A stretch of 64,000 bases of DNA, taken from positions 46,690 through 110,689 of the IMG/VR virus record IMGVR_UViG_3300025687_000024. One strand, given 5' to 3'. This DNA is from a virus. The notes under the pieces were generated by a model, which was not told the origin of the DNA, made no database searches, and worked only from the letters and a program-made list of their open reading frames with translations. Positions 11,182-42,200 of the stretch are shown here, one piece after another (within the stretch, counting starts at the first letter, position 1; the number at the start of each line of letters is the position of its first letter). The position numbers and the translations under genes were made by a program.

Positions 11182-11196
11182 CCTTATGCGCGATAT
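11182..11196 (-). promoter_or_regulatory. Promoter-like element of the leftward operon
   Basis: On the minus strand this reads ATATCGCGCATAAGG, about 43 bases upstream of the TTG start of the first replication gene. It belongs to a set of matching elements found only ahead of leftward genes (15552, 57419, 58463, 59025). The CATAAG part could act as a -10 box. An ATG inside it would start a longer form of the divergent rightward gene, but that reading is rejected. Confidence 0.6.
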
Positions 11197-11230
11197 TCGG
11201 CATCCTGTGCCCCCAGCCGAGAGAGTACCC

Positions 11231-12328
11231 ATGGACCTTCGGACCCAGGTGATCGACTTCTACGACGACCGAGAAGGTCGGATCCTCCAAGGCTTCGTTC
11301 CTGACCCCTCGGACCTCCCGCCGCTGGTCAAGACTGCTGCGGTCCTGGCGGAGAGCGCGCACAACAACCAGTACGCCTTGGTGATGAGCGATCAGCAGGG
11401 CACGCTGAGGCGTTTCCCCACCAACGACGTGGGGAACACCTGGTTGTCGGCGCTCTACTTCCACGCCACCCATGACGTGCTGCCGGAAGAGGCGGAGAAG
11501 GTCGCGGCGGCCAACCTCCTGCTCGCCTGCAATCACTTCCAGATCGACCCCCCGCAGAGCTTGGTGGAGGCAGCCTCGAGGCACGACGGACCCCCCACGA
11601 CCAACCTGGTCGACATCACGGGTCAGCGTCGCGAGATCATCAAGGAGGCCGAGGCTCTTCCCGAGGACGACGTCGTCTACGCCCTCGAGGACGAGAAGCG
11701 ATACCCCCTGGCCAGCGCGCAGGACGCCCGCACCGCTATGACCTACCTGGACAGGCACCTGCGGGGCTTTGCCCCCGGCCAGCGACGCGAGTTCGCCACC
11801 AAGGTCGCCAGTGTGGCCGAGCGTGCAGGGCTCCCAGTGGAGGGGGCGGTCGCGCAGTACGCGGGCAACGACTACTCCCCCGGGCTGCAGGGACACCTCA
11901 CCGCCCGCGCCGCGTACCTGGTGGACATCGGGGCCACGCCCAAGGTGCGCGCCGAGTTGACCAAGGTCGCGGCCCAGCGCACCGCGCTCCCGCCCGACGA
12001 GTTCGCCGCGGCGCTGCAGACCTTCGATGAGAGCCACGGGCTGGATCGTCTGTGGGACCAGGGCATCGCGGATCCCTACTACTCCACCTTCGGGTGGACG
12101 GTGAAGACCGCTGCCGACAAGGCGCGCTACGAGGCGGGCATCCTCTCCGTGTCCGAGGATGAGCTCCGCTCGCTGGCGGAGTACGGGCGCAAGGTGCTGG
12201 TCGAGCGCTTCGGAGAGAAGCTCGCCAACGCCTTCTGCAAGAACCCGGTCGCCATCTTCACGTCCATGCCGCTCCCGCAGCGGCAGATCCTGGCCAACAT
12301 GGCCTCCAGCGTCACCGACTTGCAGTAG
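11231..12328 (+). CDS. Candidate virion core protein with repeated KxA motifs
   Basis: 365 residues from ATG 11231, which has GAGAG five bases upstream. Mostly helical, no known domain. It carries several K-[TV]-A sites (LVKTAAV, EAEKVAAAN, FATKVASV, ELTKVAAQ, TVKTAADK), the motif shared by many proteins of the virion blocks. First gene of the rightward block, upstream of the portal. A head-internal, core or scaffold role is inferred from motif and place only. Confidence 0.75.
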   Translation: MDLRTQVIDFYDDREGRILQGFVPDPSDLPPLVKTAAVLAESAHNNQYALVMSDQQGTLRRFPTNDVGNTWLSALYFHATHDVLPEEAEKVAAANLLLACNHFQIDPPQSLVEAASRHDGPPTTNLVDITGQRREIIKEAEALPEDDVVYALEDEKRYPLASAQDARTAMTYLDRHLRGFAPGQRREFATKVASVAERAGLPVEGAVAQYAGNDYSPGLQGHLTARAAYLVDIGATPKVRAELTKVAAQRTALPPDEFAAALQTFDESHGLDRLWDQGIADPYYSTFGWTVKTAADKARYEAGILSVSEDELRSLAEYGRKVLVERFGEKLANAFCKNPVAIFTSMPLPQRQILANMASSVTDLQ

Positions 12329-12394: not shown

Positions 12395-13011
12395 AGCCCC
12401 TCACAACGCTGCTTCTGCAGTTGCTCGGCCCCGAGTACATCGACTGGGACTCCGAGGCGCTCTTCCTCGAGTTGGAAGAGCGTGGAGGCGTCCCCGTGGG
12501 TGCGATGACGCAGGAGCGCATCCAGGCGGTGCGTCTGATGCACCGGCAGCCCTCGTTCTGGCACGACTGGGGAGTGTTCGAGAACGTGACGGCGGCCATC
12601 CTCGGACACGGCGCGGTCTTCAGCCACGCTCAGCCCCCCGATGCGCACGAGATCGCGATCGCGTTGGACGTGGCGCGCGTCTTGGACGCCTCGCGTGCCT
12701 ACTCGGCCGAGGTGCTGCAGTACATCGTCAGTGCGCTGCTCTACGACGGCGTGTGGTACCTCGAGGAGCCTCTCGACCTTGCACAGGCGACCTTGGCGGA
12801 CCACGATAGCACCAAGGGCATCCTTCGGGACGTAGGTCAGGTGGCTGCCGTGCTACAGCGTGTTGGGAACCGCTACATCACGACGCCTTCGACAGCGGCC
12901 GAGGTGCAGGCCAACCACGTCATAGAGGTCAGGAAGGCACGAGCGGAGTACAATCAGCAGGTGCAGGCGCAGTTGCGCCAACTTCCGCAGATCCTCCAGG
13001 AGCTACGATGA
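12337..13011 (+). CDS. Hypothetical virion-block protein
   Basis: 224 residues if the GTG at 12337 is used (AGGAGGG just upstream), or 210 from the in-frame ATG at 12379. No family recognised. The C-terminal 50 residues are an Arg/Gln-rich helix (ARAEYNQQVQAQLRQLPQIL). It lies two genes ahead of the portal, where head-assembly proteins are common. The stop overlaps the next start by four bases. Confidence 0.72.
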   Translation: MKPLFQPARPFEDGMGLHVQPLTTLLLQLLGPEYIDWDSEALFLELEERGGVPVGAMTQERIQAVRLMHRQPSFWHDWGVFENVTAAILGHGAVFSHAQPPDAHEIAIALDVARVLDASRAYSAEVLQYIVSALLYDGVWYLEEPLDLAQATLADHDSTKGILRDVGQVAAVLQRVGNRYITTPSTAAEVQANHVIEVRKARAEYNQQVQAQLRQLPQILQELR

Positions 13012-13379
13012 GCCAGTACGACACCGTCAGGGAACAGATCATCCTCATGGCGTTCGAGGAAGAGCTCGAGAAGATCGCCGCCGGCTGGTTCACCCCCATC
13101 AAGAAGGGGCTGAAGTCGGCGGGCCACCGCATCATCTCCAAGGCGGCGCCCACGGGCAGCGGGGCGGCTACCGCTGGCATCCGCGGCCTGCGGAAGGGCG
13201 TGAAGCAGGGCAAGCGTGGCTACTGGAAGGCCGGCAAGAAGGCCAGCTTCAAGACGCGGGCGCGGGTCTTCGGAGCCAACGCCATGAACTTCGCCGCGCG
13301 GAACCCCGGTACCGCTGCTGCGGGCGTCGGCCTGGGAGCGGTCGGTGCGGGTGCTGTGGGCGCCAAGGTCCTGAGCTAA
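13008..13379 (+). CDS. Small basic internal-head candidate with ELEKIA leader
   Basis: 123 residues, or 110 from an ATG at residue 14. EELEKIAAGW lies near the N-terminus, the motif shared across the virion blocks. The body is rich in Lys/Arg/Gly and the C-terminus is a glycine-zipper stretch (AAAGVGLGAVGAGAVGA). Inferred as a packaged protein whose leader is removed and which may enter membranes at ejection. Directly upstream of the portal. Confidence 0.7.
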   Translation: MSQYDTVREQIILMAFEEELEKIAAGWFTPIKKGLKSAGHRIISKAAPTGSGAATAGIRGLRKGVKQGKRGYWKAGKKASFKTRARVFGANAMNFAARNPGTAAAGVGLGAVGAGAVGAKVLS

Positions 13380-15590: not shown

Positions 15591-18500
15591 ATGCCGTACC
15601 TGAGCCCTGACGAACAGTTCGCTGACCTCAAGAGCAAGGTCTCGTCCACCCTGATGGAGCTCTTCCCCGTGGAGGGGCGCGGCGGCCGCGTCGTCCTCAA
15701 GAACGTGGAGGTCGACGACAACCTCGACACGCATGACCTGCGCTCGCAGCGGGTAGCTCTGCAGGAGGGGAAGACCTGGGCGGTGCCCGTGTACGGGGAT
15801 GCTGTGCTCGAGCGCGAGGGCCAGGAGATCGACCGCAAGCGCGTCCTGCTGATGCACCTGCCCAAGACCACGGACAGGTTCGGCTACATCGTCAAGGGGC
15901 GGGAGTACCAGGCGCTCACCCAGTTCCGGCAGAAGTCCGGCGTGTACCACCGCACGGCGAGCAACGGCGCGCTGTTGGCCGAGTTCAACCTGGCCAACAG
16001 GGACCAGTTCGCCAACGGGCGTACCTTCAAGGTGCGGTTCGATCCCGAGGAGGCGGTCTACTACCTGCAGCACGGCAACTCCAACATCCCGCTGTACCAC
16101 CTGTTGAAGGGTGCCGGGGTCTCCGACCGGGAACTCGAGCAGCGCTGGGGAGCTGCCATCGTGCAGAAGAATCGAGAGCGGGCCTCGGCCGAGCAGGTCT
16201 ACTCCCGCTTCTACAAGGCGGTGAACAAGAAGCAGCCCGCGGATCCCATGAGGCACGCTGGGCTGTTCCGCGAGCTGCTCGGTAAGACCCGGCTGCGGGC
16301 GGACACGACCAAGAAGACGCTGGGCGCCGAGTTCGAGACTGTCGACAACGAGGTCCTCCTGCGCGCGACCGAGAACCTCCTCGACATGTCGAAGGGGCGC
16401 CGGGAGGATGACCCGAAGACTTCGCTGGAGTTCCAGTCCGTTCACACCATCGACGACTTCATCGACGGCCGCTTGAAGCGTGCGGCGCCGAGCATTCGCC
16501 GGAAGCTGGCCAACGCTCTGGCCAGCGGGCGCACGCGCAACGTACGCCGCGTGGTGAAGGCCGATCCGTTCGACCGGGCAGTGCAGGGCTACTTCACCTC
16601 TGACCTGACGGTGAACCCCGAGCAGACCAACCCCTTGGAGATGCTCGCCGGCCAGCTCAAGACCACCATCATGGGCGAGCAGGGAGGCTACAAGTCGGCG
16701 CACGTGGTGTCCGAGGAGTCCAAGCTCATCAGCCCGTCGCACCTCGGCTTCCTCGACCCCATCCACACCCCGGAGAGCGACAAGACGGGAGTGACCCTCT
16801 CGCTGCCGCTCGGTGTGAAGAAGGTCGGCAACGAGCTCGAGACGCTGCTGGTGGACGCCCGGACGGGGAGGACGCGGCGCATGCAGCCCGCGGACGTGCT
16901 CGACCAGACGGTGGCCTTCCCCGATCAGTACGAGCGGAAGGGGAAGAAGCTGGTAGCCCGTCACGCCAAGGTCAAGGCTACTCGTGGTGGAGAGGTCGTC
17001 ACGGTCCCTGCGAGCGAGGTCGACTACGTACTCCCCAGCCCACGCAGCCTGTTCGGCGTAGCGTCCAACCTGGTGCCCTTCCTGCAGAACAACCAGGGCA
17101 ACCGCGCCATGACCGCGGCCAAGCAGCAAGAACAGGCCGTGCCCCTGGAGCACCGGGAGGCTCCCCTGGTGCAGGTCGAGATGGACCGCGGGGGTACCTT
17201 CGAACAGGCTCTTGGCCTGTACGCCTCTCGCCGGGCCCCCGTAGCCGGGGTCGTCAAGACGGTGAAGAAGGACGCGGTGATCATCAACGACGGGGACAAG
17301 GACCACGAGGTCCAGATCTACCGCAACTTCCCGCTGAACGGGACCTCCCTCTACGACATGGACGTCCAGGTCAAGAAGGGTGACCAGGTCGAGAAGGGGC
17401 AGCTCCTCGCGGACTCCACCTTCACCAAGGACGGGACGCTGGCGCTCGGAACCAACCTGCGGACCGCCTACATCCCCTTCATGGGGTACAACTTCGAGGA
17501 CGGCATCGTCATCTCGGAGGCCGCTGCGAGGAAGCTGGCGTCGCGCCACCTCTACAAGAAGTCCACAGCGCGGGATGCCGACACGATCCTCAGCCGGAAG
17601 ACCTTCCTGGCAGAGTACCCCTACGTCTTCGGCAAGGGGCAGCTGAGCGGTGTGGGGGAGGACGGCATCGTGAAGCCCGGCACCATCCTCAACGAGGGTG
17701 ACCCGCTCATCATGGTGCTGCGGAAGCCCCCCATGACCAAGGCACGCAAGCAGATCCGGGAGTTCCGCCGAGGGCGGCCTGACAAGTACCGGGACCGCTC
17801 CGTCGTGTGGGACAAGCCCTACCAGGGCGAGGTCACCGAGGTCGTGCGCAAGGGCAAGGACGTCACGGTCTACGTCAAGACCCGAGAGCCCGCCCAGATC
17901 GGCGACAAGGTCGTCGGGCGGCACGGCAACAAGGGCGTCATCACGCGCATCATCCCGGTGTCCGAGATGCCCTGGAAGGAGGGAGAGAACGGCGAGAAGG
18001 AGCACGTCGAGATCGCGCTGAACCCCCTGGGCGTGCCCGGGCGCATCAACCTCGGGCAGATCCTGGAGACCGCGGCGGGTAAGGTGGCCGAGAAGCGCGG
18101 GAAGCCCTACGGCGTGCGCAACTTCGAGGCCGAGAAGGACTACCTGGCGATGGTCAAGGAGGACCTGGCCGCCGAGGGTCTGCAGGACCGCGACGAGCTC
18201 ATCGACCCTCGGACGGGGAAGCCCTTCCCCAACCGCATCCTGGCGGGCAACCAGTACATCGTCAAGCTGAAGCACCAGGTGGGCAAGAAGGTCTCTGCCC
18301 GTGCCGGCGGTCCCGGCGCGCCCTACGACATCAACCACGCGCCGGCCGGGGGCGCTCCCCACGGGGGGCAGGCTCTGGGGGAGCTCGGGATGTACTCCAT
18401 GCTGGCGCACGGAGCCCGGGAGAACCTCCACGAGATGTTCGCCTACAAGTCGTCCCGCAACCACGAGCTGTGGGATGCCCTGCGAGAAGGGACGCCGCTA

Positions 18501-21500
18501 CCGCCCCCGAAGGTGCCCTTCGCCTACGAGAAGTTCCTCTCCTACCTGAACGCCATGCGCGTCGACGCACGGAAGCACGGGAACAGCCTGACCTTGGTCC
18601 CGTTCACCGAGGAGCAGGTGAAGTCGATGTCGGCCGGGGAGCTCAAGGATCCCGGGCTGGTGGTGCGCGGCAAGGACTTGCGTCCGCTCAAGGGCGGGCT
18701 GTTCGACGAGGACATCACGGGCGGCATGCTCGGGGACAAGTGGGCACACTTCAAGCTCGCCGAGCCCATGCCGAACCCGCTCTTCGAGGACGCGGTCAAG
18801 AAGCTCCTCAACATCACCCGCAAGCGCTACGCGGACATCGTCGCGGGACGGGTGGAGGTCAAGGGCAAGCGGGGCGGGGAGGCCATCAAGGCCCTGCTGG
18901 AGGACGTCAACGTCGCGGAGCAGCGGGAAGCCATCACTGCGAAGCTCGCGACTGCGAAGGGAGCCACGCGGAGCAAGCTGCACAAGCAGCTGCGCATCCT
19001 CAAGGCCCTGGAGGCCAACAACCTCGACCCCACGGTCTACATGATGGAGTCCGTGCCCGTCGTCCCGCCGATCATGCGCCCCGTAACGGTCAAGGACGAC
19101 GGCTCCCTCTCGTCCAACGACTTGAACTACCTCTACAAGGGCATCGCGGCCTCCAACGACGTGCTCCGGAGCAACAAGCGGGCAGGCCTGCCCGCAGCCC
19201 ACATGGAGACGGTGCGCTCCGAGCTGTACGATGGCGTCAAGGCCCTGATGGGTGTCGGCGCCGCGGCTGCGCCGGGCCCGCGCGACTACCAGGGAGTGCT
19301 CAAGATCATCTCGGGGGATCAGCCCAAGGAGGGCTACTTCCAGAAGCGCGTGATGAAGCGCCGCCAGGACTTCTCGGCCCGGTCCATCATCATCCCGGAG
19401 CCGGGCATGGACCTCGACGAGCTCGGGGTGCCCGAGAAGGTGGCCTGGTCGCTGTACCAGCCCTTCATCGAGCGCGACCTCGCCCGGGCGGGCTGGAAGA
19501 TGCTCGACGCCATCAACGAGGTCAAGGCCCGCGGTCCCGCGGCCGAGAAGGCGTTGGAGCGTGCGGTGCAGGAGCGCCCCATTCTACTGAAGCGCGACCC
19601 CGCTCTGCACATGTTCAACGTGATGGCCTTCAAGCCCAGGCTGGTGAAGGGCAGCGCCATCGAAATCCACCCCCTCGTCGTCTCGGGCTACAACGCTGAC
19701 TTCGACGGCGACGCCATGAGCGTGTACCTGCCCCTCACCTCGAAGGCGGTGAAGGAAGCGCATGGCATGTACCCGTCCAAGAACTTGTTCAGCTCGAGCA
19801 CGGGTGCCGTGATGCACACGCCCGGGCACGAAGCGTTGCTCGGCCTCTACCTGGCGTCGAAGCCCGGGAAGCGCACGCGGCACACGTTCAAGACGGGAGA
19901 AGACGCGCGGGCGGCCTGGCGTCGGGGACGTATCGACCGGACGGACATCATCCACGTGGCTGGGCACGAGACTACGGTGGGCCGGCTGGACATCGAGCGG
20001 CACCTGCCGCCGGAGCTGCGGGAGACCGGGAAGAAGCCTGTCTCCCAGATGCGGGTCTACGACAAGGGGACCACCAAGAAGGTGCTGACGGCCATCGCCA
20101 AGAAGAACCCTGACCACTACGGCAAGGTGGCCAACGCCTTCAAGGACATCGGCAACGAGCACACCTTCGACGTAGGGTTCTCCATCGGCCTCGACGACTT
20201 CGAGGTCATCAACCGGAAGGAGCGGGACTCCATGATGCAGGCGGCCGAGGCCCAGGCGGACCGCATCCGGCAGGGTCCCGGGAGCAAGCAGCGGAAGGAC
20301 GAGCGGGTCGTCAAGATCTTCCAGGACCTCGATGACTCCCTCGACCGCCTCAACACCGAGCACCTGGCCCAGAACCCCACCAACATCTCCCGCATGGTGG
20401 AGTCCGGGGCGCGCGGCAAGCCCTCGCAGCTCAAGCAGATCATCAGCAGTCCCGTGTTGGTGATGGACGCGAAGAACCGGGTGGTGCCGAGCCTCATCCC
20501 GCGGTCGTACTCCGAGGGCATGGACGTGGCGTCCTACTGGACCACGCTGCACGGTGCGCGGAAGGGCACCATCCAGAAGGTGCAGGGCGTGAAGGACCCC
20601 GGGTACATCTCCAAGCAGGTGATGAACTCCACCATGAACCAGCTCGTCACGGAGCGAGACTGCGGGACGACCGAGGGCATCTTCATGTCCGTCGATGACT
20701 CGGACATCCTGGACAGGTACACGGTGCAGGGGACGCTCATCACGCCGAAGGTGGTGGCTGATGCGCGGAAGCGCCGACAGCGCTCCCTCAAGGTGAGGTC
20801 CCCCCTGCGGTGCAAGTCGTCGCACGGCATCTGCCAGAAGTGCATGGGGCTGAGCGTGAACGGACACCACCACGATGTGGGGACCAACGTGGGGGTGCTC
20901 GCTGGGCAGGCCATCGGAGAGCCCGCGACGCAGCTCTCCCTCAACGTCTTCCACACGGGAGGCTTGGCCAAGGGGCGCGGCTCGAAGAGCGTCAACGCCT
21001 TCCACCGGCTCACCGAAATCTTGCGGCTCCCCAAGAACCTGCCGGACGCAGCGCCGCTGGCCCTGGAGTCGGGGACGGTCACCAAGGTCGAGCGCGCGCC
21101 GCAGGGCGGCGAGTACGTGACCGTCGGCCGGACGCGCCACTACCTCCCGGCGGCTCAGGCCAGGGCGGTGAAGCGCGGGCAGCCTGTGCGCAAGGGCGCT
21201 CCGCTGACGGATGGCGTGGTGGACCCGCGCAACCTGCTGTCCCTGCGGGGCCTCGAGGCTGTGCAAGACCACCTCACCGACGAGCTCGCCGACGTCATGG
21301 GTACGGTGGCTCCGGTGAAGCGACGCAACCTCGAGGTCGTCGTCAAGTCGCTCACGAACGTCACGCACATCGACGATGCGGGAGACCACCCGGAGTGGGT
21401 TCCGGGCGATGCGCAGCCCTACAGTGCCGTGCAGGCGTACAACCGGAAGCCCGGCACGAAGCCGGTCAAGCATACGCCCTACCTCAAGGGAGTCAACGTC

Positions 21501-21701
21501 CTGCCCCACGAGATGCAGGAAGACTGGATGGCGCGCCTGAACTACACCGACCTCTCGCGCACGCTGACCGAGGCGGCCCGCGAGGGCTGGCGGTCCAACA
21601 TCCACGGCTTCCATCCGGTACCCGGGGCGGCCTACGCTGCCGAGTTCGGGCAGAAGCAGAAGGCCGTCAAGCCCGGTGAGCCCTGGAGAGGTGAGTATTG
21701 A
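15591..21701 (+). CDS. Single-chain RNA polymerase, beta and beta-prime fused
   Basis: 2036 residues joining both catalytic subunits of a multisubunit RNA polymerase. Beta part (about 1-1003): H384 region GFLDPIHTPES, GNRAMTAAKQQEQAVPL (from 503), GYNFEDGIVISE (632), GRHGNKG (776), LNPLGVPGRINLGQILE (810) and GELGMYSMLAHGA (about 930). Beta-prime part: GLFDEDITGG (1036), clamp coiled coil (1177-1221), RRQDFSARS (1257), the catalytic loop NADFDGD (1368-1374), trigger loop (1654-1680) and second zinc site C1691, C1741, C1748, C1751. The first zinc domain is absent and the chain is well below the combined E. coli length. No alpha, omega or sigma gene is visible. AGGAG lies six bases before the ATG. 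Its place between portal and spike suggests late expression and possibly a virion polymerase. Confidence 0.96.
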   Translation: MPYLSPDEQFADLKSKVSSTLMELFPVEGRGGRVVLKNVEVDDNLDTHDLRSQRVALQEGKTWAVPVYGDAVLEREGQEIDRKRVLLMHLPKTTDRFGYIVKGREYQALTQFRQKSGVYHRTASNGALLAEFNLANRDQFANGRTFKVRFDPEEAVYYLQHGNSNIPLYHLLKGAGVSDRELEQRWGAAIVQKNRERASAEQVYSRFYKAVNKKQPADPMRHAGLFRELLGKTRLRADTTKKTLGAEFETVDNEVLLRATENLLDMSKGRREDDPKTSLEFQSVHTIDDFIDGRLKRAAPSIRRKLANALASGRTRNVRRVVKADPFDRAVQGYFTSDLTVNPEQTNPLEMLAGQLKTTIMGEQGGYKSAHVVSEESKLISPSHLGFLDPIHTPESDKTGVTLSLPLGVKKVGNELETLLVDARTGRTRRMQPADVLDQTVAFPDQYERKGKKLVARHAKVKATRGGEVVTVPASEVDYVLPSPRSLFGVASNLVPFLQNNQGNRAMTAAKQQEQAVPLEHREAPLVQVEMDRGGTFEQALGLYASRRAPVAGVVKTVKKDAVIINDGDKDHEVQIYRNFPLNGTSLYDMDVQVKKGDQVEKGQLLADSTFTKDGTLALGTNLRTAYIPFMGYNFEDGIVISEAAARKLASRHLYKKSTARDADTILSRKTFLAEYPYVFGKGQLSGVGEDGIVKPGTILNEGDPLIMVLRKPPMTKARKQIREFRRGRPDKYRDRSVVWDKPYQGEVTEVVRKGKDVTVYVKTREPAQIGDKVVGRHGNKGVITRIIPVSEMPWKEGENGEKEHVEIALNPLGVPGRINLGQILETAAGKVAEKRGKPYGVRNFEAEKDYLAMVKEDLAAEGLQDRDELIDPRTGKPFPNRILAGNQYIVKLKHQVGKKVSARAGGPGAPYDINHAPAGGAPHGGQALGELGMYSMLAHGARENLHEMFAYKSSRNHELWDALREGTPLPPPKVPFAYEKFLSYLNAMRVDARKHGNSLTLVPFTEEQVKSMSAGELKDPGLVVRGKDLRPLKGGLFDEDITGGMLGDKWAHFKLAEPMPNPLFEDAVKKLLNITRKRYADIVAGRVEVKGKRGGEAIKALLEDVNVAEQREAITAKLATAKGATRSKLHKQLRILKALEANNLDPTVYMMESVPVVPPIMRPVTVKDDGSLSSNDLNYLYKGIAASNDVLRSNKRAGLPAAHMETVRSELYDGVKALMGVGAAAAPGPRDYQGVLKIISGDQPKEGYFQKRVMKRRQDFSARSIIIPEPGMDLDELGVPEKVAWSLYQPFIERDLARAGWKMLDAINEVKARGPAAEKALERAVQERPILLKRDPALHMFNVMAFKPRLVKGSAIEIHPLVVSGYNADFDGDAMSVYLPLTSKAVKEAHGMYPSKNLFSSSTGAVMHTPGHEALLGLYLASKPGKRTRHTFKTGEDARAAWRRGRIDRTDIIHVAGHETTVGRLDIERHLPPELRETGKKPVSQMRVYDKGTTKKVLTAIAKKNPDHYGKVANAFKDIGNEHTFDVGFSIGLDDFEVINRKERDSMMQAAEAQADRIRQGPGSKQRKDERVVKIFQDLDDSLDRLNTEHLAQNPTNISRMVESGARGKPSQLKQIISSPVLVMDAKNRVVPSLIPRSYSEGMDVASYWTTLHGARKGTIQKVQGVKDPGYISKQVMNSTMNQLVTERDCGTTEGIFMSVDDSDILDRYTVQGTLITPKVVADARKRRQRSLKVRSPLRCKSSHGICQKCMGLSVNGHHHDVGTNVGVLAGQAIGEPATQLSLNVFHTGGLAKGRGSKSVNAFHRLTEILRLPKNLPDAAPLALESGTVTKVERAPQGGEYVTVGRTRHYLPAAQARAVKRGQPVRKGAPLTDGVVDPRNLLSLRGLEAVQDHLTDELADVMGTVAPVKRRNLEVVVKSLTNVTHIDDAGDHPEWVPGDAQPYSAVQAYNRKPGTKPVKHTPYLKGVNVLPHEMQEDWMARLNYTDLSRTLTEAAREGWRSNIHGFHPVPGAAYAAEFGQKQKAVKPGEPWRGEY

Positions 21702-25173: not shown

Positions 25174-27192
25174 ATGTCTCACCAGCCCCTCTTCCACTCC
25201 GCTGAGATCAAGCTCGAGAAGCGCGCCAGCGGCTTCGGCCTCAAGCTGGAGGGCGATGCCGACGAGTGGCCCACGGAGATCACCAAGGGGGCCTACTCCC
25301 AGCTCCCGTACCTGCACCAGACCCAGATCGATGTCGCTCTCGAGCGCGTCGACGAGGCCCGGGGCTACGCTATCGGCAAGCTCATGGCCTACCCTCCGGG
25401 CATGACCAAGAAGGCGGCGGCCAGCAACAAGCAGCTGCTCATCTTCCCCCTGGTCGTCCGGGAGCGGGAAGTGGCTCCCCTGGACGTGATGTTCCACAAG
25501 GGGGACGCGCACTCGGTCAACGAGGAGAAGGTGGCCAGTGCTCTGCAGAACCCCGACGTGTTCGCCGGCACGGCCAAGCCCGACAGGTTCAAGGGCACCG
25601 ACATCGGCAGCCAGATGCAGCCCCCGACGAATCAGGGGTCGCCCGATGCCAGCTCGGTCATCAAGACGGGCTCCGTGCTGCTGGAGAAGGTGGCTTCGAC
25701 GCTCCGTGCAGCCGACGTGGAGCGGTTCAGGGCCCAGCTCCGCGAGGACACCCCGGTGCGCGCGGCGCTCCTGCAGGATGGGGAGATGCGGCAGTCCCTC
25801 CTGTCCCTCACCACGGCCAAGGAGAAGACCGCGGCCGAGGTCGGGCAGCTGCGGCGCGCGCTGACCCGCCCCACGGTGGTCCAGCTCCGGGAGCACGGGA
25901 TGGGCTACAAGGTCAAGACGGCCAACCACGCCTGCTTCGCTCCCGTGGAGAACGAGATCACGCGCTTCGAGGCCGAGTCGATGCTCTCGGGCGAGAGCAT
26001 GAAGGTGCTGCGCGAGCGCGGCTTCGTCACCTTCGCCACCGACGCGGTGGATACGGCGTCCAAGGTCAAGGTGGCCCAGGTCGCTGATCGCGTGGGGGTC
26101 TACACGACCTACGCTGGGGGGAAGGAAGTGCAGGGTGTGGTGGTCCCCGCGGTGATGTCCATCGAGGGAGTCCCGATGAGCGGGCACATGTTCCTGGGCG
26201 GGAACGAGCACGCGCTTCAGGAGAAGGTCGCCGGCGTGTTCGAAGCCGACCTCACGCTTCAGGGGGCGCACCCCCGCGGCCGCGGGGTCTTCGTGTACCA
26301 GGTCGGGCGTCAGGCCATCGCCACCGAGCCGGTGGACATCCAGCACGAGTACGAGCTCCCGGTCGGTGACGGCAAGACCAAGACCGCGTCGCTGCAGGCA
26401 GTCCGCCTCGGGTCCGGCCAGCCGGTGCGCATCACGCTGGTCCCGGGCATCGACAAGATCGCGGCCCTCGGGGGAGCCGAGGTGGCCGTGCCCGACTCCT
26501 TCGTCTTCGTGCCGCTGCGGGGCTCCCAGGTGGGCGTGGCGGAGGATCCACGCGACGTGGACGGGCGTGAGATGCTCAAGGTCGCCGGCGTGGACTCCGT
26601 GGAGCTGCTCTCCGACGGCGCCGCCTTCTCCCTGCGCGGGCAGAACGCGGCGTCCTTCCACGGGCAGTTCCTCTCCGAGTCCGGGGCCGAGTTCGCCCTC
26701 GGCGCCTTGGGCGTCCGGGGAAGCAGCGCCCGGCACTTCATCGAGAAGGCAGCGTCGGCCCAAGCCCCCGTGACGGTGCCCCACACGCGCCCCGTGGTCA
26801 AGGAGACCGAGCTGAAGGCGCGCACCATGATGAAGGTCGCCTCGGCCTTCCGCGAGGTGGACCGCGGGCTGCAGCGGAACCTGGTGCCCGAGCTGGCCGT
26901 TCTGCGGCGTCAGCCGTCCGAGCACTCCTCGCTCTCCAAGCATGCCTCTGTCATCATCGACCGCGAGACGGCGGACGCCATCCTCTCGCTCAACTTCGTG
27001 ACCCCCGAGAACGTGCAGGCCTACGTGGACGCCATCCCCCAGCTGGAGAAGGTCTCCAGCAAGCTGGCCGAGATCCTGGTGGCGTCCAGGCTCGGCATGG
27101 ACGACGTACGGGAACAGGCGGCGCGCAACGCGCTGAGGAACGTGGACGAGGTCCTCGACGGACTGCACGAGCTGAGGGCCAAGACCCAGTAG
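25174..27192 (+). CDS. Large virion-block protein full of EKxA motifs
   Basis: 672 residues, ATG with TAGGAG upstream. No known domain. It starts with KLEKRAS (13-19) and carries at least ten more K-[ITV]-A sites, among them NEEKVAS, LLEKVAS, KEKTAAE, QEKVAGV, KTKTASL, DKIAALG, LKVAGVD and MKVASAF. Spread over the whole chain, they divide it into pieces of roughly 30-90 residues. If the motif is a protease site this would be a core or scaffold polyprotein; otherwise a large internal head protein. Confidence 0.75.
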   Translation: MSHQPLFHSAEIKLEKRASGFGLKLEGDADEWPTEITKGAYSQLPYLHQTQIDVALERVDEARGYAIGKLMAYPPGMTKKAAASNKQLLIFPLVVREREVAPLDVMFHKGDAHSVNEEKVASALQNPDVFAGTAKPDRFKGTDIGSQMQPPTNQGSPDASSVIKTGSVLLEKVASTLRAADVERFRAQLREDTPVRAALLQDGEMRQSLLSLTTAKEKTAAEVGQLRRALTRPTVVQLREHGMGYKVKTANHACFAPVENEITRFEAESMLSGESMKVLRERGFVTFATDAVDTASKVKVAQVADRVGVYTTYAGGKEVQGVVVPAVMSIEGVPMSGHMFLGGNEHALQEKVAGVFEADLTLQGAHPRGRGVFVYQVGRQAIATEPVDIQHEYELPVGDGKTKTASLQAVRLGSGQPVRITLVPGIDKIAALGGAEVAVPDSFVFVPLRGSQVGVAEDPRDVDGREMLKVAGVDSVELLSDGAAFSLRGQNAASFHGQFLSESGAEFALGALGVRGSSARHFIEKAASAQAPVTVPHTRPVVKETELKARTMMKVASAFREVDRGLQRNLVPELAVLRRQPSEHSSLSKHASVIIDRETADAILSLNFVTPENVQAYVDAIPQLEKVSSKLAEILVASRLGMDDVREQAARNALRNVDEVLDGLHELRAKTQ

Positions 27193-32415: not shown

Positions 32416-33300
32416 ATGCAGGACTTCCTCACCAAGCTCGCCGAGGGCACCACCGGCGGGACTACCTCCGAGCATCTCTCCCTGTTGGGCAAGCGAGCGG
32501 CCAGTCGCTTCATGACCAAGGAGGCGGACTCGCTGAGTGCGGCTGTGCGGAGCGTGGTCGGCGAGGAATCGCTGAACCGTGACCAGGTGGAGCGCGTCAC
32601 CCAGGCCGCAAACCAGGCTGCCTGGCGCGGACTGTTCCACGAGGGTGAGCAGGACCCCAACATCGAATTCTCCCCGGCCAAGATCGACGAGGTGATCCAG
32701 CAGCCCGAGGCTTCGCCGGCTCCCCTTCAGCAGAGCATGGACTTCCTGGAGCCCCCGGTGGGGGAGCAGCTGCCGTCGGATGTCTCTCTGGAGGAGGCCT
32801 TCGGGGTGGACAAGACGGCCTCCCAGGACGAGTACCCCGAGCTCAACCCCGCGGCCGGGGCGGCGGCGCTGCACACCAAGACGGCTGCGGCGGAAGGCTT
32901 CCTGCGCTCTGACGCGGACCGGCTGGAGATCGAGGTGGGGCGCCTCGAGGACACCTTCTACGAGCTGGTCAAGCAGGCGCACCTGCAGCACGGGCACGGC
33001 ATCCTCCAGATCGCCGGCGCCGTCGGTGAGATCTGCGAGGAGCCCCCCTTCGCTCGGGCGGCCATGGAGAAGGTGGCCCAGCGTCTTCAGCGCAACGGGG
33101 TGATCATCAACCGCGCCAGCGAGATGCAGAAGCTCGCGATGGCGGTCACGGTCGATACCGAGCACCCCATCCTGACCACCTACGCCTCTCTCGAGAAGAC
33201 CGCGCATGCGGCTCGGGTGGCGCGCAGCGCGGCCCAGCAGGCCGCCGACGCCCGCAAGCTCTCCGGAGACTACCTGCGGGACAAGCTCAGGACGGCCTGA
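32416..33300 (+). CDS. Candidate head core protein with KxA motifs
   Basis: 294 residues. The N-terminus is MQDFLTKLAEG, and further motif copies are VDKTASQ, HTKTAAAEG, AMEKVAQ, MQKLAMA and SLEKTAHAA. The middle is acidic and Pro-rich; the end is helical and basic. First gene of the second rightward block. Motif density resembles the proteins at 11231 and 25174, so a protease-processed core or internal protein is inferred. Confidence 0.73.
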   Translation: MQDFLTKLAEGTTGGTTSEHLSLLGKRAASRFMTKEADSLSAAVRSVVGEESLNRDQVERVTQAANQAAWRGLFHEGEQDPNIEFSPAKIDEVIQQPEASPAPLQQSMDFLEPPVGEQLPSDVSLEEAFGVDKTASQDEYPELNPAAGAAALHTKTAAAEGFLRSDADRLEIEVGRLEDTFYELVKQAHLQHGHGILQIAGAVGEICEEPPFARAAMEKVAQRLQRNGVIINRASEMQKLAMAVTVDTEHPILTTYASLEKTAHAARVARSAAQQAADARKLSGDYLRDKLRTA

Positions 33301-33845
33301 TGAACGTGGTGCTCGCCCTGGCGTTCCAGCAGGAGCTGGAGAAGATCGCAGACGCGACGGCCGACTCGTGGTTCGGGCAGTACCGAAGCCACTGGCGGGG
33401 GGCGGCTGAATCGTCGCGGCCCGGAGCCAAGCGCTTCAACAAGGCGCTGGACATGCTCTGGAGCGGCAAGGAAGTTCAGACGCCCGGCATCGGGGGGAAG
33501 CTCGGGAAGCTTCCCTTCATCGGAGGTCCGTCGACGGTCCGTGTGGGCGGCATCGGCGGGGGCATCCAAGCTGGCGGCGAGGGCGTAGGCCGCGCCTTGC
33601 GCACGCCTGCCAGGATGCTCGTGGGTGTTCCGGCCAAGGCCGTGTGGCAGGGCACGAAGGCGGTCACCAAGGGAGTCGCCCGTACCGCGGGGACGGTCAT
33701 CCGCAAGCAGCCCCTCGGCGCCGCGATGACGGGCTACTTCGCCTACGCCGGAGCTGGGCACGGCGCCAGTGCGCTCCGACGAGGGACCGCACAAGCGAGA
33801 ACGGCTACCAAGCGATACATGGGGCAAGTCAGGAGGCCGACGTGA
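33300..33845 (+). CDS. Basic internal-head candidate with ELEKIA leader
   Basis: 181 residues. FQQELEKIADA lies at residues 9-19. The rest is Lys/Arg/Gly-rich, with a glycine-rich stretch (VRVGGIGGGIQAGGEGVG) and a hydrophobic AMTGYFAYAGAGHGA near the C-terminus. It fits a packaged, DNA-associated or membrane-inserting protein. Start overlaps the previous stop (TGATG). Confidence 0.7.
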   Translation: MNVVLALAFQQELEKIADATADSWFGQYRSHWRGAAESSRPGAKRFNKALDMLWSGKEVQTPGIGGKLGKLPFIGGPSTVRVGGIGGGIQAGGEGVGRALRTPARMLVGVPAKAVWQGTKAVTKGVARTAGTVIRKQPLGAAMTGYFAYAGAGHGASALRRGTAQARTATKRYMGQVRRPT

Positions 33846-34453: not shown

Positions 34454-36139
34454 ATGTCCGACTTCCCAGGCATCCCCAAGACGCTTCCCGTCACCGTCGG
34501 CGGCTCCGATCCGCTGGGGCGGTGCTTCGCCGAGGCGGTCGACGTCACGCGCGCGGGCGGTGGGGGCCTGGAGAAGATCGCCGGCGTGCGCGAGCTGCAT
34601 CCCGAGATCGACGCCTACCTGAAGCAGCTGCGGCCGGATCCGGCCTACCAGTTCGTGCTCATGACCCCGCTGGGGGCCTACGAGTACTGGGGGATGAACG
34701 TCAACGGGGACATCTTCCCCGAGATCGCGCTGGCGCACGACCACCTCAAGCAGAACCCCCGAGACGTCATCAGGCGCCTCGAGGCACGCTGGGTGACCCC
34801 GCACGGGCGACGCCTCCCCCCGGGCAACTACCACGAGTTCGGGCACAAGACGTTCCTGAACGCCAAGCGCTACCTGCACCACGTCAACAAGAACCCCGAG
34901 ATCGCCTACGGGGACATCGTGGTGGCGGTCTACAACCCCGCGATGCACCGCGTGGAGGTCATCGTCCGGCACGACCGGGAGATGGCCAAGAAGGTGGGGG
35001 CGCAGGATGTCATCGACGACATCGACGAGCGCAAGCCTCGCCAGATCTCGATGGGGTGCAAGGTTCCCTTCGACGTCTGCACCAAGTGCGGCTCCATCTC
35101 GAAGACCACGCGCGACTACTGCGAGTGCCTGCTCACGCAGCGGGCACAGATCCTGCCTGACGGGCGGATCGTCGGCATGGTCAACCTCTTCCCCCGCTTC
35201 TTCGACCTCTCGGACGTCTTCGTTCCGGCAGCGAAGGAGTCCGGGGTACTGCTCAAGGTGGCCTCGGCGGCAGGGACCCGCTTCTTCGTGCCGCACTCCT
35301 ACTTCGAGCGCATTGGTACGCGGCCGCCAGCGGACGCCATCGAGGTGACGCGCGAAGGCGTGCTGGTCAAGGTGGCGCACGACAAGCAGGCCGAAGCTGC
35401 CAAGAGCGCCGAAGTGACCAAGGAGATCCTCCCCAACGCTGGCCCGAATGTGGAGCGCCTGACTGCGCGCGAACCCGACATTCCAACCGGCCTGTTGGGG
35501 GGCGACTTCGAGCAGCTCGTCAACACGCTGGCGCTGCTGGGGATCGTGCTCAAGCCACACGAGTTCCAGCACGGAGCGCTCACAGGCGCGGGCCTGGGTG
35601 ACCTGGCGTCCCAGCTGAGCGCGAAGCGCCAGGTGTTCACGCCGGCTACCTCCGAGAGTGCGCTTCGCCTGAGCTGCGAGAGCTACAGTCCGAACCTCGC
35701 GCGCCTGTTGGCGTCCTTGCTGGCGTCCCGGTCTGCCTTCCATCCGCACCTTCCCGCGCGCTCGTTGCAGCTCGTCGTGGTGAAGTCTCCCAAGCTCCCG
35801 CCCAAGCGAGAGCAGGTCGAGAACACGCCACCTCTGCAGAAGGTTGCGGAGGCCTACGACGCCTACAGGAAGGCACTTGTCTACCTTCCAGGCCTGCTAC
35901 CGCAGGCTATCGACAACGACCCGGCCTTCTACCGGGAGCACTATCTGGGAGAACTCTTCGAGAACTCCTGGGAGAAGCTCGCGTCGGGGAGTACCGAGAA
36001 GGGGTTGTCTCCGCCCCCCGTATCGGTATACCTTACGGCTGCGCACCGTGATCGCGGTGGTGTTCCTTCTTCGTGGGATCGGGTACTACCTCCACACACA
36101 GCCGCACGGGCACTGCTCGGAATCGAGGATCTCTCATGA
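34454..36139 (+). CDS. Prohead protease, gp21-like
   Basis: 561 residues. The N-terminal third fits the phage prohead protease family: GMNVNGDIFPE, then LHHVNKNPEIAYG with H142/H143 and QISMGCKVPFD with S199, the expected His and Ser. A zinc-like group, CTKC with DYCEC, follows the serine as in several large-phage homologues. The C-terminal 300 residues are an extension carrying further KxA motifs (LLKVASA, LVKVAHD, LQKVAEAY, WEKLASG) and GLEKIAG occurs at 39-43. It should cleave capsid and internal proteins during head maturation; the EKxA sites in it suggest it also cuts itself. Confidence 0.85.
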   Translation: MSDFPGIPKTLPVTVGGSDPLGRCFAEAVDVTRAGGGGLEKIAGVRELHPEIDAYLKQLRPDPAYQFVLMTPLGAYEYWGMNVNGDIFPEIALAHDHLKQNPRDVIRRLEARWVTPHGRRLPPGNYHEFGHKTFLNAKRYLHHVNKNPEIAYGDIVVAVYNPAMHRVEVIVRHDREMAKKVGAQDVIDDIDERKPRQISMGCKVPFDVCTKCGSISKTTRDYCECLLTQRAQILPDGRIVGMVNLFPRFFDLSDVFVPAAKESGVLLKVASAAGTRFFVPHSYFERIGTRPPADAIEVTREGVLVKVAHDKQAEAAKSAEVTKEILPNAGPNVERLTAREPDIPTGLLGGDFEQLVNTLALLGIVLKPHEFQHGALTGAGLGDLASQLSAKRQVFTPATSESALRLSCESYSPNLARLLASLLASRSAFHPHLPARSLQLVVVKSPKLPPKREQVENTPPLQKVAEAYDAYRKALVYLPGLLPQAIDNDPAFYREHYLGELFENSWEKLASGSTEKGLSPPPVSVYLTAAHRDRGGVPSSWDRVLPPHTAARALLGIEDLS

Positions 36140-36567
36140 GCGACATGGCCTCCCTCCTGGACTCCATCTACAACTCCGACCAGCGGGTGAGCCCCCTCGA
36201 GAAGACCGCCGAGGCGGCCATGCTCGAGCAGCTGGGGCAGTCCGGACAGACCGCCGGCGCGCTGCGCGACATGAGCACCGCCGAGCTCATCGCCCTGGCC
36301 ACGCAGCTCGAGGCCGACGAGGGCACCGAGAAGACGGCCTCCGCCCAGCCGGCCGCGGCGGAGCCCGAGGACACCTCCGAGCTCGAGAAGGTGGCCTACG
36401 ACACCTTCGGCGGGCAGCTGATGGCCCACGCCTTCACCCACGAGCTGGGGCTCATGAAGGTCGCCATGATCAACGGCAAGTGCCGCGTGTGCAAGGAGAA
36501 CGCCATGGACATCCAGGGCAGCTCCATCTGCAGCGCCTGCCACGCCGAGGCAGACAGCGCCGAATAG
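36136..36567 (+). CDS. Small zinc protein with three EKxA motifs
   Basis: 143 residues. Three motif copies: PLEKTAE (20-26), GTEKTAS and ELEKVAY. The C-terminus holds a zinc ribbon, CRVC and CSAC. The layout suggests a leader and linker cut away from a zinc-binding product of about 65 residues. Starts inside the protease stop (ATGA), so the two are co-translated. Confidence 0.7.
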   Translation: MSDMASLLDSIYNSDQRVSPLEKTAEAAMLEQLGQSGQTAGALRDMSTAELIALATQLEADEGTEKTASAQPAAAEPEDTSELEKVAYDTFGGQLMAHAFTHELGLMKVAMINGKCRVCKENAMDIQGSSICSACHAEADSAE

Positions 36568-36887: not shown

Positions 36888-37577
36888 ATGCTCTCTCTGA
36901 ACGACATGATCCGTCAGGCCATCGGGGACGCGGAAGAGGCCGAGCAGTCGGCCCCGACCACTCCCGAGGTGCAGGCGGCTCCCCCCGCCTCTTCCGGTGC
37001 GAGCATCGACCACGGTGAGCTGAGCAAGCTCGCCAGCGCGCTGGAGTTCGTCGGTACCCGCGGTGTCGAGTCCCTGCTGGTGCTCGAGAAGGACGCCAGC
37101 GCCGCCGCGCCGCCCGCGGGCACCAACGCCGGGCAGACGCACGGCGAGAAGAAGCAGTCCCAGGTGCAGCCGCACAAGGGCGCTCCTCCCATGAAGCCCA
37201 AGGCCACGGGTGCTCCCGACGACAACGAGCACCAGCGCCCGGGCGGCAACGCCCCCTCGCCCGACACCTCGAGCACCCAGAAGGGCGCCAGCCACCCCGG
37301 CCTCAAGAGCAACGAAGCCGCCATCGGCGTCACCAAGGCCGACAAGGCCAAGCTCGTCGCCCCCGCGCTCTCCAAGCTGCTCTCCGCCACCCCCTTCGCG
37401 GACCCCAAGGTGAAGGAGAACCTGCGCAACGCGGGCAAGGCCGGCGAGCGCAACATCAACGCGGGCAAGGCCAAGACCGCCTCGGGCGAGGCCGCTCCCC
37501 AGCTCCCCCCGGGGGTCAACCTCGAGCAGGTGCGCGAAGAGCTCGCGCGCCGCGTCAACGACGGAGGGCAGGCCTGA
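36888..37577 (+). CDS. Scaffold or core candidate
   Basis: 229 residues, ATG with GAGG upstream. The N-terminus is acidic and helical, the middle is disordered Pro/Ala/Lys, and the C-terminus has a short helical region (LEQVREELARRVNDG). Motif copies: ELSKLASAL, VLEKDASA, KAKTASGE. Its place two genes upstream of the decoration and capsid genes is typical of a scaffold. Confidence 0.65.
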   Translation: MLSLNDMIRQAIGDAEEAEQSAPTTPEVQAAPPASSGASIDHGELSKLASALEFVGTRGVESLLVLEKDASAAAPPAGTNAGQTHGEKKQSQVQPHKGAPPMKPKATGAPDDNEHQRPGGNAPSPDTSSTQKGASHPGLKSNEAAIGVTKADKAKLVAPALSKLLSATPFADPKVKENLRNAGKAGERNINAGKAKTASGEAAPQLPPGVNLEQVREELARRVNDGGQA

Positions 37578-37963
37578 TGCTCACCAAGATCGGATCCGCC
37601 GAGCTCAACGGGCTCCTCATCAAGTCCGCCGCCGCCATCCGCGACCTCTCCGCCGAGAACGAGCAGCTGCGTGCTCAGCTCGCCAAGAAGGACCGGCGCG
37701 AGCACGCCGTCAAGATCGCCAGCGTGGCGGTCGAGCGCGGCATCGTGGCCGAGGACGCGCAGGCCGAGTACGCGCAGACCCTCGCTTCCGGCTCCCGGAA
37801 CCTCGATGACGTCGAGGAACTGGTCAGCCACGCCGCCGCTGGACTCCCCCTGGGCGAACTCACCAAGGAGGCTGCCGACGGCGACGGCGCTTCCGGAGTC
37901 GTCCCGGGCGCCGCCGAGCAGAAGTTCGCCTCCTTCCTCACGAACAGTGGCATCGTCCACTAG
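37577..37963 (+). CDS. Small coiled-coil protein, scaffold candidate
   Basis: 128 residues. An N-terminal helix and coiled coil (IRDLSAENEQLRAQLAKKDR) is followed by motif-like KIASVAVE and LTKEAAD. Overlaps the preceding gene's stop by one base. The size, coiled coil and place before capsid genes fit an assembly core component. Confidence 0.65.
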   Translation: MLTKIGSAELNGLLIKSAAAIRDLSAENEQLRAQLAKKDRREHAVKIASVAVERGIVAEDAQAEYAQTLASGSRNLDDVEELVSHAAAGLPLGELTKEAADGDGASGVVPGAAEQKFASFLTNSGIVH

Positions 37964-38536: not shown

Positions 38537-39565
38537 ATGAGCACCGACGCTGCCACCCTGAACCAGCTCTTCCTGGCCCATCTGGAGCACCCCGAGGGCA
38601 AGGAGAAGCTCGCGGCCGTGGGCCGTACCTACGTGCGTGACAAGCTGCGCGAGAACAGCTTCGCCCGCAAGATCCTCCCGCCCCAGATGGTCACCAAGGC
38701 CGACATGCAGGTGTCCGTGAACCACGACACCCTCGTCTACATCGACGAGATCGAGCCCAACTCCAGGGCCATGTCGCTGACCTTCCGCGGCCAGCCCACC
38801 GCGCGCTACATCCGCGCCTCCCGCTACGAGATCCCCATCTTCACCATCTCGAGCGAGCGCTTCGAGAAGACGGAGCAGGAGCTCCTCGCCTACCGGATGC
38901 CCATCACCCGGGTGATCGAGGACAACTCGGTCAAGGACATCCAGGAGATCGAGGACTACCGCTTCCTGGTCTACGTCGATGCGGCCATCTCCAACACCGA
39001 GCAGATCGTCAAGGGCACCCAGGCCCAGGACGATATCGAGGCCAACGGGCTGAACTCCGGCTTCCGCGGCACCCTCGAGCGCGCCGACCTGGTCCTGCTG
39101 TTCAAGGAGCTCGACTCCCGTCGTCGCCGCCTGGCCACGGTGCTGATGAACGAGGAGAACTGGGACGATGTCCTGAACTGGACCATCGAGGACTTCGGCG
39201 ACAAGCAGGCCTCGGTGACCGTCGACGGCTACACCTACGACCGCCTGATGGGTCGGAAGATCATCCGTACCATCAAGACGGACATCCTCCAGACCGGCAA
39301 CATCTACGGCTTCTGCGCGCCCGAGTGGCTCGGCAAGTTCCTCATCCTGAACGCCACCAAGTTCTACATCGACAAGGTGTACAACCTGGTCATGTGGCAG
39401 GCCTGGGAGGACATCGGCATGGGCATCGGCAACATCGCCAGCATGGCCAAGCTCGAGCTCTACAACGACACCACCGACGTCCTGATCTCCGAGGATGAGG
39501 TCGGCACCACGGTCTACAACGAGGCCGACGATGGTCTGACCTTCCCGCAGGTCAGCCACTACTAG
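38537..39565 (+). CDS. Major capsid protein
   Basis: 342 residues, AGGAG upstream. The sequence has the alternating pattern and length of an HK97-fold capsid protein: a charged N-terminal arm, an E-loop-like region (IEPNSRAMSLTFRGQPTARY), a spine helix (ELLAYRMPITRVIEDNSVKD) and P-domain segments (TLERADLVLLFKELDSRRRR). GKEKLAAVG at 21-29 matches the EKxA motif, so the first 26 or so residues may be cut off by the prohead protease. Preceded by scaffold, protease and decoration candidates in the usual head-gene order. Confidence 0.82.
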   Translation: MSTDAATLNQLFLAHLEHPEGKEKLAAVGRTYVRDKLRENSFARKILPPQMVTKADMQVSVNHDTLVYIDEIEPNSRAMSLTFRGQPTARYIRASRYEIPIFTISSERFEKTEQELLAYRMPITRVIEDNSVKDIQEIEDYRFLVYVDAAISNTEQIVKGTQAQDDIEANGLNSGFRGTLERADLVLLFKELDSRRRRLATVLMNEENWDDVLNWTIEDFGDKQASVTVDGYTYDRLMGRKIIRTIKTDILQTGNIYGFCAPEWLGKFLILNATKFYIDKVYNLVMWQAWEDIGMGIGNIASMAKLELYNDTTDVLISEDEVGTTVYNEADDGLTFPQVSHY

Positions 39566-39585: not shown

Positions 39586-40083
39586 ATGCCTGTGATGGTG
39601 ACCATCAGGAACCGGCGCCCGCGCAAGACCGTCAAGGTCTGCGGGCGCTACCTCGCCTGTACCCGCGTCCAGAAGGCCGCGGGGAAGGGCGGTACCCTGG
39701 ACATCACCGAGGAGCAGCTCGCCTCCAGCACCGTGCAACGCCTGCTCGCGCTGAAGCGCATCGAGATCGTCGGGCGGTCCGGGACGGCGGTGACGCCGCC
39801 TCGCGACGAGCCCCCAGCTCCTGCAGCAGCGTCGGAGGAGCCGACGCCCGTCGAAGAGGAGCCCGCCCCCGAGCCGCCTGTCGATCCCGAGCCGGAGCCC
39901 GAGCCGGAGCCTGCACCTGCGCCAGAACCCTCTCCCCCGCCCAAGCAGTGGACGCGGGATGAGCTCGAGGGCAAGACCCTCCCCGAGCTTCGCCCGCTCT
40001 ACACGCGCCTGACCGACGCCAGCCCGAGCGGTCTCCGCAAGGCTGACATCATCGACGGCATCATCGGCGCCCAGGAGGCCTGA
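39586..40083 (+). CDS. Pro/Glu-repeat protein with SAP-like C-terminus
   Basis: 165 residues. An N-terminal basic beta-rich domain (IRNRRPRKTVKVCGRYLACT) is joined by a PEPEPEPEP linker to a C-terminal segment, WTRDELEGKTLPELRPLY then LRKADIIDGIIG, which looks like a SAP/HeH helix-extension-helix. Similar proteins next to capsid genes are known in other phages and bind DNA or the head. Stop overlaps the next start by one base. Confidence 0.7.
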   Translation: MPVMVTIRNRRPRKTVKVCGRYLACTRVQKAAGKGGTLDITEEQLASSTVQRLLALKRIEIVGRSGTAVTPPRDEPPAPAAASEEPTPVEEEPAPEPPVDPEPEPEPEPAPAPEPSPPPKQWTRDELEGKTLPELRPLYTRLTDASPSGLRKADIIDGIIGAQEA

Positions 40084-40752: not shown

Positions 40753-40813
40753 CTCGTCTTCCTTTTCCCCATACGCTGCAAGCGTGCCGACCAATCCTCC
40801 CCCGGAGTTCCTC

Positions 40814-41816: not shown

Positions 41817-42200
41817 ATGAACGAACTGCTCGCAGGCATCTACGGCACCGGCGACATGGAGAAGGTCGCCTCCCCCGTGGACCCGACCCGCCAGATGACC
41901 CTCGACGACCTGGCCACCGTCATCGTCGTCGACAGTCTCGGTGACGGCGCGGACATGGAGAAGGTCGCCGAGGCGCACCAGGAGGTCTTCGCCGACCTGG
42001 TGTCCTTCGATCGCGCCGGACGCGCCATGGCCCACCACGAGTTCACCGAGATGGAGAAGATGGCGGCCGCGGGTGACACGGAGGCCCTCGAGGCCTTCTT
42101 CGCCGATGTCGAGTTCGACGACGGCGGTGAGCCCGACCCCCGTCACGCCGCGCGCGAAGCCATCGCCGCGGAGCTGCAGCGCCGCGCCGGCCTGCAGTAG
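41817..42200 (+). CDS. Small acidic protein with three MEK[VM]A motifs
   Basis: 127 residues, AGGAGG upstream. DMEKVASP (13-20), DMEKVAEA and EMEKMAAA divide an acidic chain. The start (LLAGIYGTGDMEKVA) resembles that of the 310-residue precursor (VLARIYGLDKTA), so the two leaders are related. Likely another processed head-internal protein. Confidence 0.7.
   Translation: MNELLAGIYGTGDMEKVASPVDPTRQMTLDDLATVIVVDSLGDGADMEKVAEAHQEVFADLVSFDRAGRAMAHHEFTEMEKMAAAGDTEALEAFFADVEFDDGGEPDPRHAAREAIAAELQRRAGLQ

Follow-up and report, generated by a model that had tools for sequence, protein, structure and literature searches.

A K-x-A motif enriched in putative head proteins is a likely recognition motif of the predicted prohead protease in a lineage of large phages

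The scissile bond of herpesvirus assemblin lies between Ala and Ser, and to our knowledge Lys at P3 is not required. In phage T4, gp21 cuts after Glu at L/I-x-E (PMC9026906). Glu is also the residue after which the SPN3US protease gp245 and the phiKZ protease cut, at A-x-E or S-x-E (PMC5694885, PMC10052503). Self-processing is described for SPN3US gp245, which removes its C terminus, and supposed for T4 gp21, at its ends (PMC5694885, PMC9026906). T4 also has capsid-targeting sequences, N-terminal propeptides of 10–20 residues that are removed by gp21 (PMC5694885) and hold both targeting and cleavage information (PMC9026906).

The window analyzed here is a stretch of 64,000 nucleotides, bases 46690–110689 of the 110,689-base virus record IMGVR_UViG_3300025687_000024, with a GC content of 66.5%. 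Its virion gene block occupies roughly 11–52 kb on the plus strand, and features below are on this strand unless marked. The block encodes a portal, a single-chain RNA polymerase beta/beta', TerL (phrog_675), a protease, the major capsid protein (MCP, phrog_2522) and a tail sheath (phrog_279). The polymerase is one 2036-aa ORF (15591–21701) that combines beta and beta' domains and has NADFDGD. Of 12 relative records, 9 encode a single-chain homologue (2051–2180 aa), whereas Salmonella phage Arash has separate beta and beta' genes. The sheath (46498–49560, 1020 aa) is long for a sheath, and its profile match covers mainly the C-terminal part. Directly 3' of the capsid gene, 39586–40083 encodes a 165-aa protein rich in Pro/Glu repeats.

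The ORF at 34454–36139 (561 aa) was modeled with AlphaFold 2 from 44 sequences. The model contained a confident core at residues ~50–270, the predicted catalytic core, plus a second helical domain; confidence was low for residues 1–45, 273–329 and 505–518. VIA-align of the model placed T4 gp21 (5jbl_A) first (Z 9.4, 131 residues, 2.9 Å). The next rows were about 30 herpesvirus proteases, and the best unrelated rows, MCE proteins, had a Z of 4.4. Foldseek alone gave no significant match for this model. His143 and S199-M-G-C were invariant in the 44 sequences and contain the putative catalytic His and Ser. The gene adjoins the core/capsid region, with the capsid gene 2.4 kb downstream and small K-x-A-rich genes between. 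The ORF thus models as a prohead protease of the T4 gp21/herpesvirus type. Two homologues in related loci (L063:9929–12721, 931 aa; L064:8153–11044, 964 aa) have ~350–400 extra residues that break the catalytic part and are possibly inteins. In the Bxz1-like phage MoMoMixon (L108:19810–23670), the homologue makes up the N-terminal portion of a 1286-aa protein without K-x-A enrichment.

Motif counts were compared with shuffled sequences. The 32 genes of the virion block contain 51 K-[ITV]-A sites against 10.2 expected, and the highest of 5000 shuffles was 25. K..A at distance 2 was the top enriched residue pair of the block. With the wider pattern K[ITVLM]A, 68 sites were found against 18.4 expected. 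The mirrored pattern A[ITVLM]K (17 vs 18.6 expected), R[ITVLM]A (23 vs 23.9) and E[ITVLM]A (23 vs 25.0) were all at chance, indicating that neither composition nor helix periodicity accounts for the K-x-A excess. Q-x-A showed no excess over chance either. K-[ITVLA]-A is absent from the TerL, portal and sheath of the window, and the capsid protein has one KLA. Outside the block, the rest of the record contained 28 K-[ITVLMA]-A sites, summed over stretches, against ~34 expected, which is background. The genes carrying the motif mostly cluster around the protease and capsid genes, and they include most putative internal-head genes (those starting at 34454, 36136, 36888, 37577, 40802, 41817, 42210, 42852 and others). 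The original prediction had named three K-x-A-rich proteins and proposed a count against shuffled sequences. All three were far above the shuffles, and the observation was right but understated the spread of the motif.

The residues around the motif were also selective. Lys was strict, and Ala was preferred, with Ser tolerated in relatives. The middle residue was I, T, V, L or M, with E and Q also enriched in relatives, while D, N, G, P, S and H were not enriched at this position. Pooled over 1387 sites, the favored neighbors were L, M or F at −2 and E at −1, with S, then A, following the motif Ala; Ser immediately after this Ala occurred 339 times against 94 expected. The fuller motif is approximately [LMFI]-E-K-[ITVLM]-A-[SA], which, judged from the sequences, reads as the recognition profile of an enzyme.

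The same shuffle test was applied to T4 for [LI]-x-E as a positive control. Among the known gp21 substrates, enrichment was found in gp22 (16 vs 5.7, p 0.0005), gp21 (7 vs 2.5, p 0.0055), gp68 and gp23 (both p 0.03), and none in the T4 tail proteins. IPI, gp67 and gp24 fell short of significance, indicating that the test misses some true substrates. The T4 signature is analogous to K-x-A in the window but weaker. K-x-A itself was not enriched over the T4 virion proteins as a set, nor in a 50-kb stretch of SPN3US.

The predicted protease has K-x-A at residues 41, 268, 306, 463 and 508, and its family contains 383 K-x-A against 85.9 expected. The site at residue 41 was conserved in 41 of 43 sequences, that at 268 in 36 of 44, that at 306 in 27 of 36 and that at 508 in 24 of 44. 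The 25-residue bins with sites 41, 268 and 306 had 45–64 K-x-A per 1000 residues, compared with 0.9–7 in the core. The sites thus bracket the core, as self-processing of the kind described for SPN3US gp245 and supposed for T4 gp21 predicts.

The main protein of the original prediction, 672 aa, is encoded at 25174–27192; an in-frame ATG at 25036 would extend it to 718 aa. K-[ITV]-A is found at residues 119, 172, 218, 248, 299, 351, 403, 428, 469 and 554, and KAA at 80 and 525 and KLA at 630 bring the number to 13. Shuffling its residues 20,000 times gave 0.77 K-[ITV]-A on average and never more than 6 (p = 5e-5). Eight of the ten sites are followed by A, S or G (0.20 expected), as had been described. 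In homologues from relatives' loci, the family has 237 K-x-A against 42.6 expected; columns 16, 248 and 589 are conserved and the others variable. The family models as a folded alpha/beta multidomain protein (pLDDT 77) rather than as an extended, mainly helical core protein of the gp22 type, and many of the sites sit in confidently modeled structure, not in disorder. No Pfam, PHROG or tblastn phage match was found for it, and none of its PDB fold matches exceeded Z 6.8. Sliding clamps, the top Foldseek rows, were not credible as its fold, with rmsd above 30 Å. By hhalign, it is a homologue of Arash gp218 (96.4%, E 1.3e-9). Arash gp218 was one of the better covered proteins in mature virions (36 unique peptides, 1149 spectra), so the 672-aa family is, by homology, a virion component. 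Arash gp218 has only one K-x-A site; its abundance therefore does not exclude cleavage of the 672-aa protein.

The other two proteins named at the outset, said to have about five sites each, have five and four, and both are enriched. The 380-aa protein at 11186–12328 (counted from 11231 in the original prediction) has five K[TV]A sites (K-[ITV]-A 0.26 expected, p = 5e-5); BLASTP gave no support for its homology to Arash gp242. The protein at 32416–33300, upstream of the protease, has four K-[ITV]-A sites (0.27 expected, p = 2e-4) and six K[ITVLM]A (0.48 expected). It matched Arash gp220 in profile comparison (97.2%, E 3.2e-11), its family has 151 K-x-A against 28 expected, and it is the best candidate for a digested core protein. 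Directly 3' of the protease, the 143-aa protein at 36136–36567 has four K[ITV]A (0.12 expected; family K-x-A 41 vs 4.6). The 229-aa protein at 36888–37577, between the protease and the capsid protein, belongs to a family with 37 K-x-A against 11.4 expected, and the count in the window's own copy was not significant. A 128-aa scaffold candidate with a coiled-coil-looking sequence follows at 37577–37963 (family K-x-A 50 vs 6.9); its homology to Arash gp225 was weak (prob 10.8%, E 0.003) and is kept as a positional guess. Farther downstream, the protein at 40802–41746 has acidic segments separated by five EK[TV]A/DKTA sites. The 127-aa protein at 41817–42200 has EKVA N-terminally and again internally, and the 212-aa protein at 42210–42848 has LEKVA near its N terminus and one internal site. 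In the MCP (38537–39565), GKEK[ILV]A near residue 24 is conserved in most relatives and may mark a short propeptide. A second K-x-A of the MCP, YIDK[IV]AN, is conserved inside the fold and is probably not a cleavage site.

A longer form, F-x-x-E-L-x-K-[IV]-A, was found at about residues 8–20 of otherwise unrelated proteins. In five genomes, it occurred 20 times N-terminally and once internally; at least one of the 20, on a deaminase-like protein in one relative, is probably a chance match. The bearers in the window are 13008–13379 (FEEELEKIA), 33300–33845 (FQQELEKIA), 42852–43442 (FFSELEKVA, plus an internal EKVA), 43450–43938 (FIAELEKIA), 44866–45417 (FQGELVKIA), 45414–46007 (FEVELTKIA), 49560–50408 (FRSELNKIA) and 52216–53313 on the minus strand (FCDELEKIA; weak, sub-threshold P-loop ATPase matches). 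T4 capsid-targeting propeptides are short, N-terminal and common to unrelated head proteins, with a protease site at the end; the bearers here would be putative head proteins, with a putative cleavage site closing the tag. In one relative, two bearers close to each other recall T4 Alt. The first (L095:16377–17153) looks like an ADP-ribosyltransferase, with a sub-threshold PARP profile match (E 0.034) and a SWIM-like Cys/His end seen by eye, and the nearby one (L095:17718–18626) is Ser/Thr-kinase-like (StkP, E 1.7e-4). A 611-aa protein in another locus (L072:9317–11152) has the N-terminal tag FAAELTKIA and weak zinc-peptidase similarity.

To see how far the motif extends, we used 65 loci with protease relatives (27–52% best-segment identity, plus one locus that is a 100% match to the window itself); the family counts given here take in a few near-duplicate loci. 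K-x-A recurs in relatives down to ~20–30% protein identity, while the TerL family, as a control, had 29 K-x-A against 36.4 expected. In two near-copy loci (L013 and L056), the TerL ORF has 1046 aa compared with ~600 in relatives, a possible insertion such as an intein. Some relatives had no K..A enrichment at first scan, and no alternative motif stood out in them. The shortfall came partly from the longest-ORF caller, which took antisense ORFs in GC-rich loci. Family-based counts recovered K-x-A in low-scoring relatives; one protease (L058) has 11 sites. In the more distant Bxz1-like mycobacteriophages and Gordonia phage Skog, there was no comparable excess over the head genes tested, and the Skog protease fusion alone has five K-x-A against 1.45 expected. 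Isolates with protease relatives are Arash, Vibrio phage D69 and Bacillus phage G. All three have a homologous protease (gp222 in Arash) with K-x-A-rich proteins around it, as in the window, and K..A was again the top residue pair in the phage G head block. Arash and D69 have several neighboring families in common with the window. Unlike the window phage, Arash has fewer sites in the gp218 family and a capsid protein without the N-terminal site.

Published unique peptides from Arash virions (PMC10585845) were compared post hoc with expected tryptic peptides for 36 proteins; the coverage column of that table looks unlike ordinary sequence coverage. The lowest unique/expected ratios were those of gp225 (0.17; five K-x-A sites) and gp220 (0.30; seven sites), the two proteins densest in K-x-A. 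The latter, with six unique peptides, was poorly covered in virions. Over all 36 proteins, K-x-A density and peptide coverage showed no rank correlation (Spearman 0.09, p 0.59), and gp242 (four sites) and gp4 (ten, mostly KAA-type) were well-covered exceptions. The low coverage of gp225 and gp220 is in line with cleavage but suggestive only.

We consider it probable that the prohead protease of this lineage, encoded at 34454–36139, recognizes K-x-A, in full [LMFI]-(E)-K-[ITVLM]-A-[S/A]. The original prediction had raised cutting by the prohead protease at these sites as a condition, and this part is supported by inference from the gp21-type fold in the block, the bracketing sites and the analogous T4 signature. 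Points that weigh against it are the nil rank correlation in Arash with its well-covered gp242 and gp4, the many sites of the 672-aa protein in confidently modeled structure, the MCP site inside the fold, the Arash capsid protein without an N-terminal site and the lack of a significant Foldseek match for the protease. The probabilities given to the readings do not add to one, and the next concerns a sub-claim. In the original proposal as weighed here, the 672-aa protein is a gp22-like core that would be cut at all its sites into peptides of 25–80 residues, which then exit the head or persist next to the DNA. The 10–13 sites would yield 14 fragments of 25–82 residues, and in this family the site number is high and most columns are variable, as expected if selection acted on how many sites there are and not on where they lie. 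Against it stand the folded multidomain model, the abundance of the one-site Arash gp218 in mature virions and the position of the gene upstream of TerL, not adjoining the capsid gene. The proposal is not supported as stated, and we regard it as rather unlikely; the protein at 32416 and the small K-x-A-rich proteins between the protease and the capsid protein are better candidates for a shredded core.

Two other readings do without cleavage at K-x-A. The motif could be a docking motif that binds core and internal proteins to the capsid lining, the scaffold or the protease, its number setting avidity or copy number. Docking would fit the repeated sites, the sites in folded regions and the N-terminal tags, and in T4 one sequence serves targeting as well as cleavage (PMC9026906). 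Docking would predict neither that sites flank the catalytic domain of the protease and are depleted within it nor that a small residue, Ser, is strongly favored right after the Ala, and we give it a low probability. The motif might also be a by-product of amphipathic helices rich in Ala, Lys and Glu. Some carriers are helical, and K-x-A is mildly enriched in T4 gp22 as well (6 vs 1.4). As the sole cause, helix or composition is ruled out by the mirror and substitution controls, with the mirrored pattern and R-, E- and Q-x-A all at chance. The relatives have ~640 sites against 105, with one column conserved in 41 of 43 sequences, and we consider a by-product very improbable.

Under the protease-site reading, Lys would occupy P3, Ala would be the P1 residue, and the bond cut would be the one following Ala, often an Ala-Ser bond; this assignment is modeled on T4 ([LI]-x-E|) and on SPN3US (A-x-E|). 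Once the prohead is assembled, the protease would free itself by cuts on both sides of its catalytic domain. It would also trim a short propeptide, near residue 24, off the N terminus of the capsid protein. Small internal proteins may first be targeted into the head by their F-x-x-E-L-x-K-[IV]-A propeptides, which would be trimmed as well. Multi-site core proteins (32416, 36136, 37577 and 40802) would be cut into pieces. The 672-aa protein may be an internal head protein that is processed at some of its sites, and not certainly a disposable scaffold. What the data show is that the motif is enriched, specific, conserved and placed around the protease core, and that a predicted model of the protease has the expected fold. 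That cleavage occurs, at which bond and at which of the sites, we infer from these patterns.

Such a system would resemble that of T4 gp21 and its substrates (gp22, gp67, gp68, the IPs and Alt) in the protease fold, the clustering of protease, core and capsid genes, the multi-site core proteins, the short N-terminal propeptides, the sites near both protease ends and the P3-x-P1 style of the motif. It differs from T4 in the K-x-A motif, in the 561-aa protease with its second helical domain and in the spread of the motif over more proteins, including the folded 672-aa protein. SPN3US and phiKZ are also large myoviruses with a self-cutting protease and many head proteins cut at a three-residue motif, but they have long propeptides and cut after Glu. 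The assemblins (HCMV, VZV and HSV proteases) share the fold of the protease model, and their Ala-Ser bond resembles A-[S/A] of the motif, whereas the herpesvirus scaffold is one protein and here many proteins carry sites.

A literature search, which did not take in many subscription papers, returned no prior description of a K-x-A specificity. Such a cutting rule would be unlike the established ones of T4 and of phiKZ-type giant phages. With K-x-A as the cut site, the lineage would have a prohead protease specificity in which Ala takes the scissile position instead of Glu; at this position, it would be nearer to herpesvirus assemblin than to T4 or phiKZ. Arash, D69 and phage G are recorded isolates, which makes existing material available for a test of the claim. 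If true, sequence alone would reveal in-head proteins, trimming points and targeting propeptides in many uncharacterized large phages. We also propose, tentatively and at slightly less than even odds, that a widespread lineage of large phages with their own RNA polymerase uses one K-x-A code for head maturation and, in the form of the N-terminal tag, for loading unrelated cargo proteins into the head for delivery. If so, its injected cargo could be listed from sequence alone.
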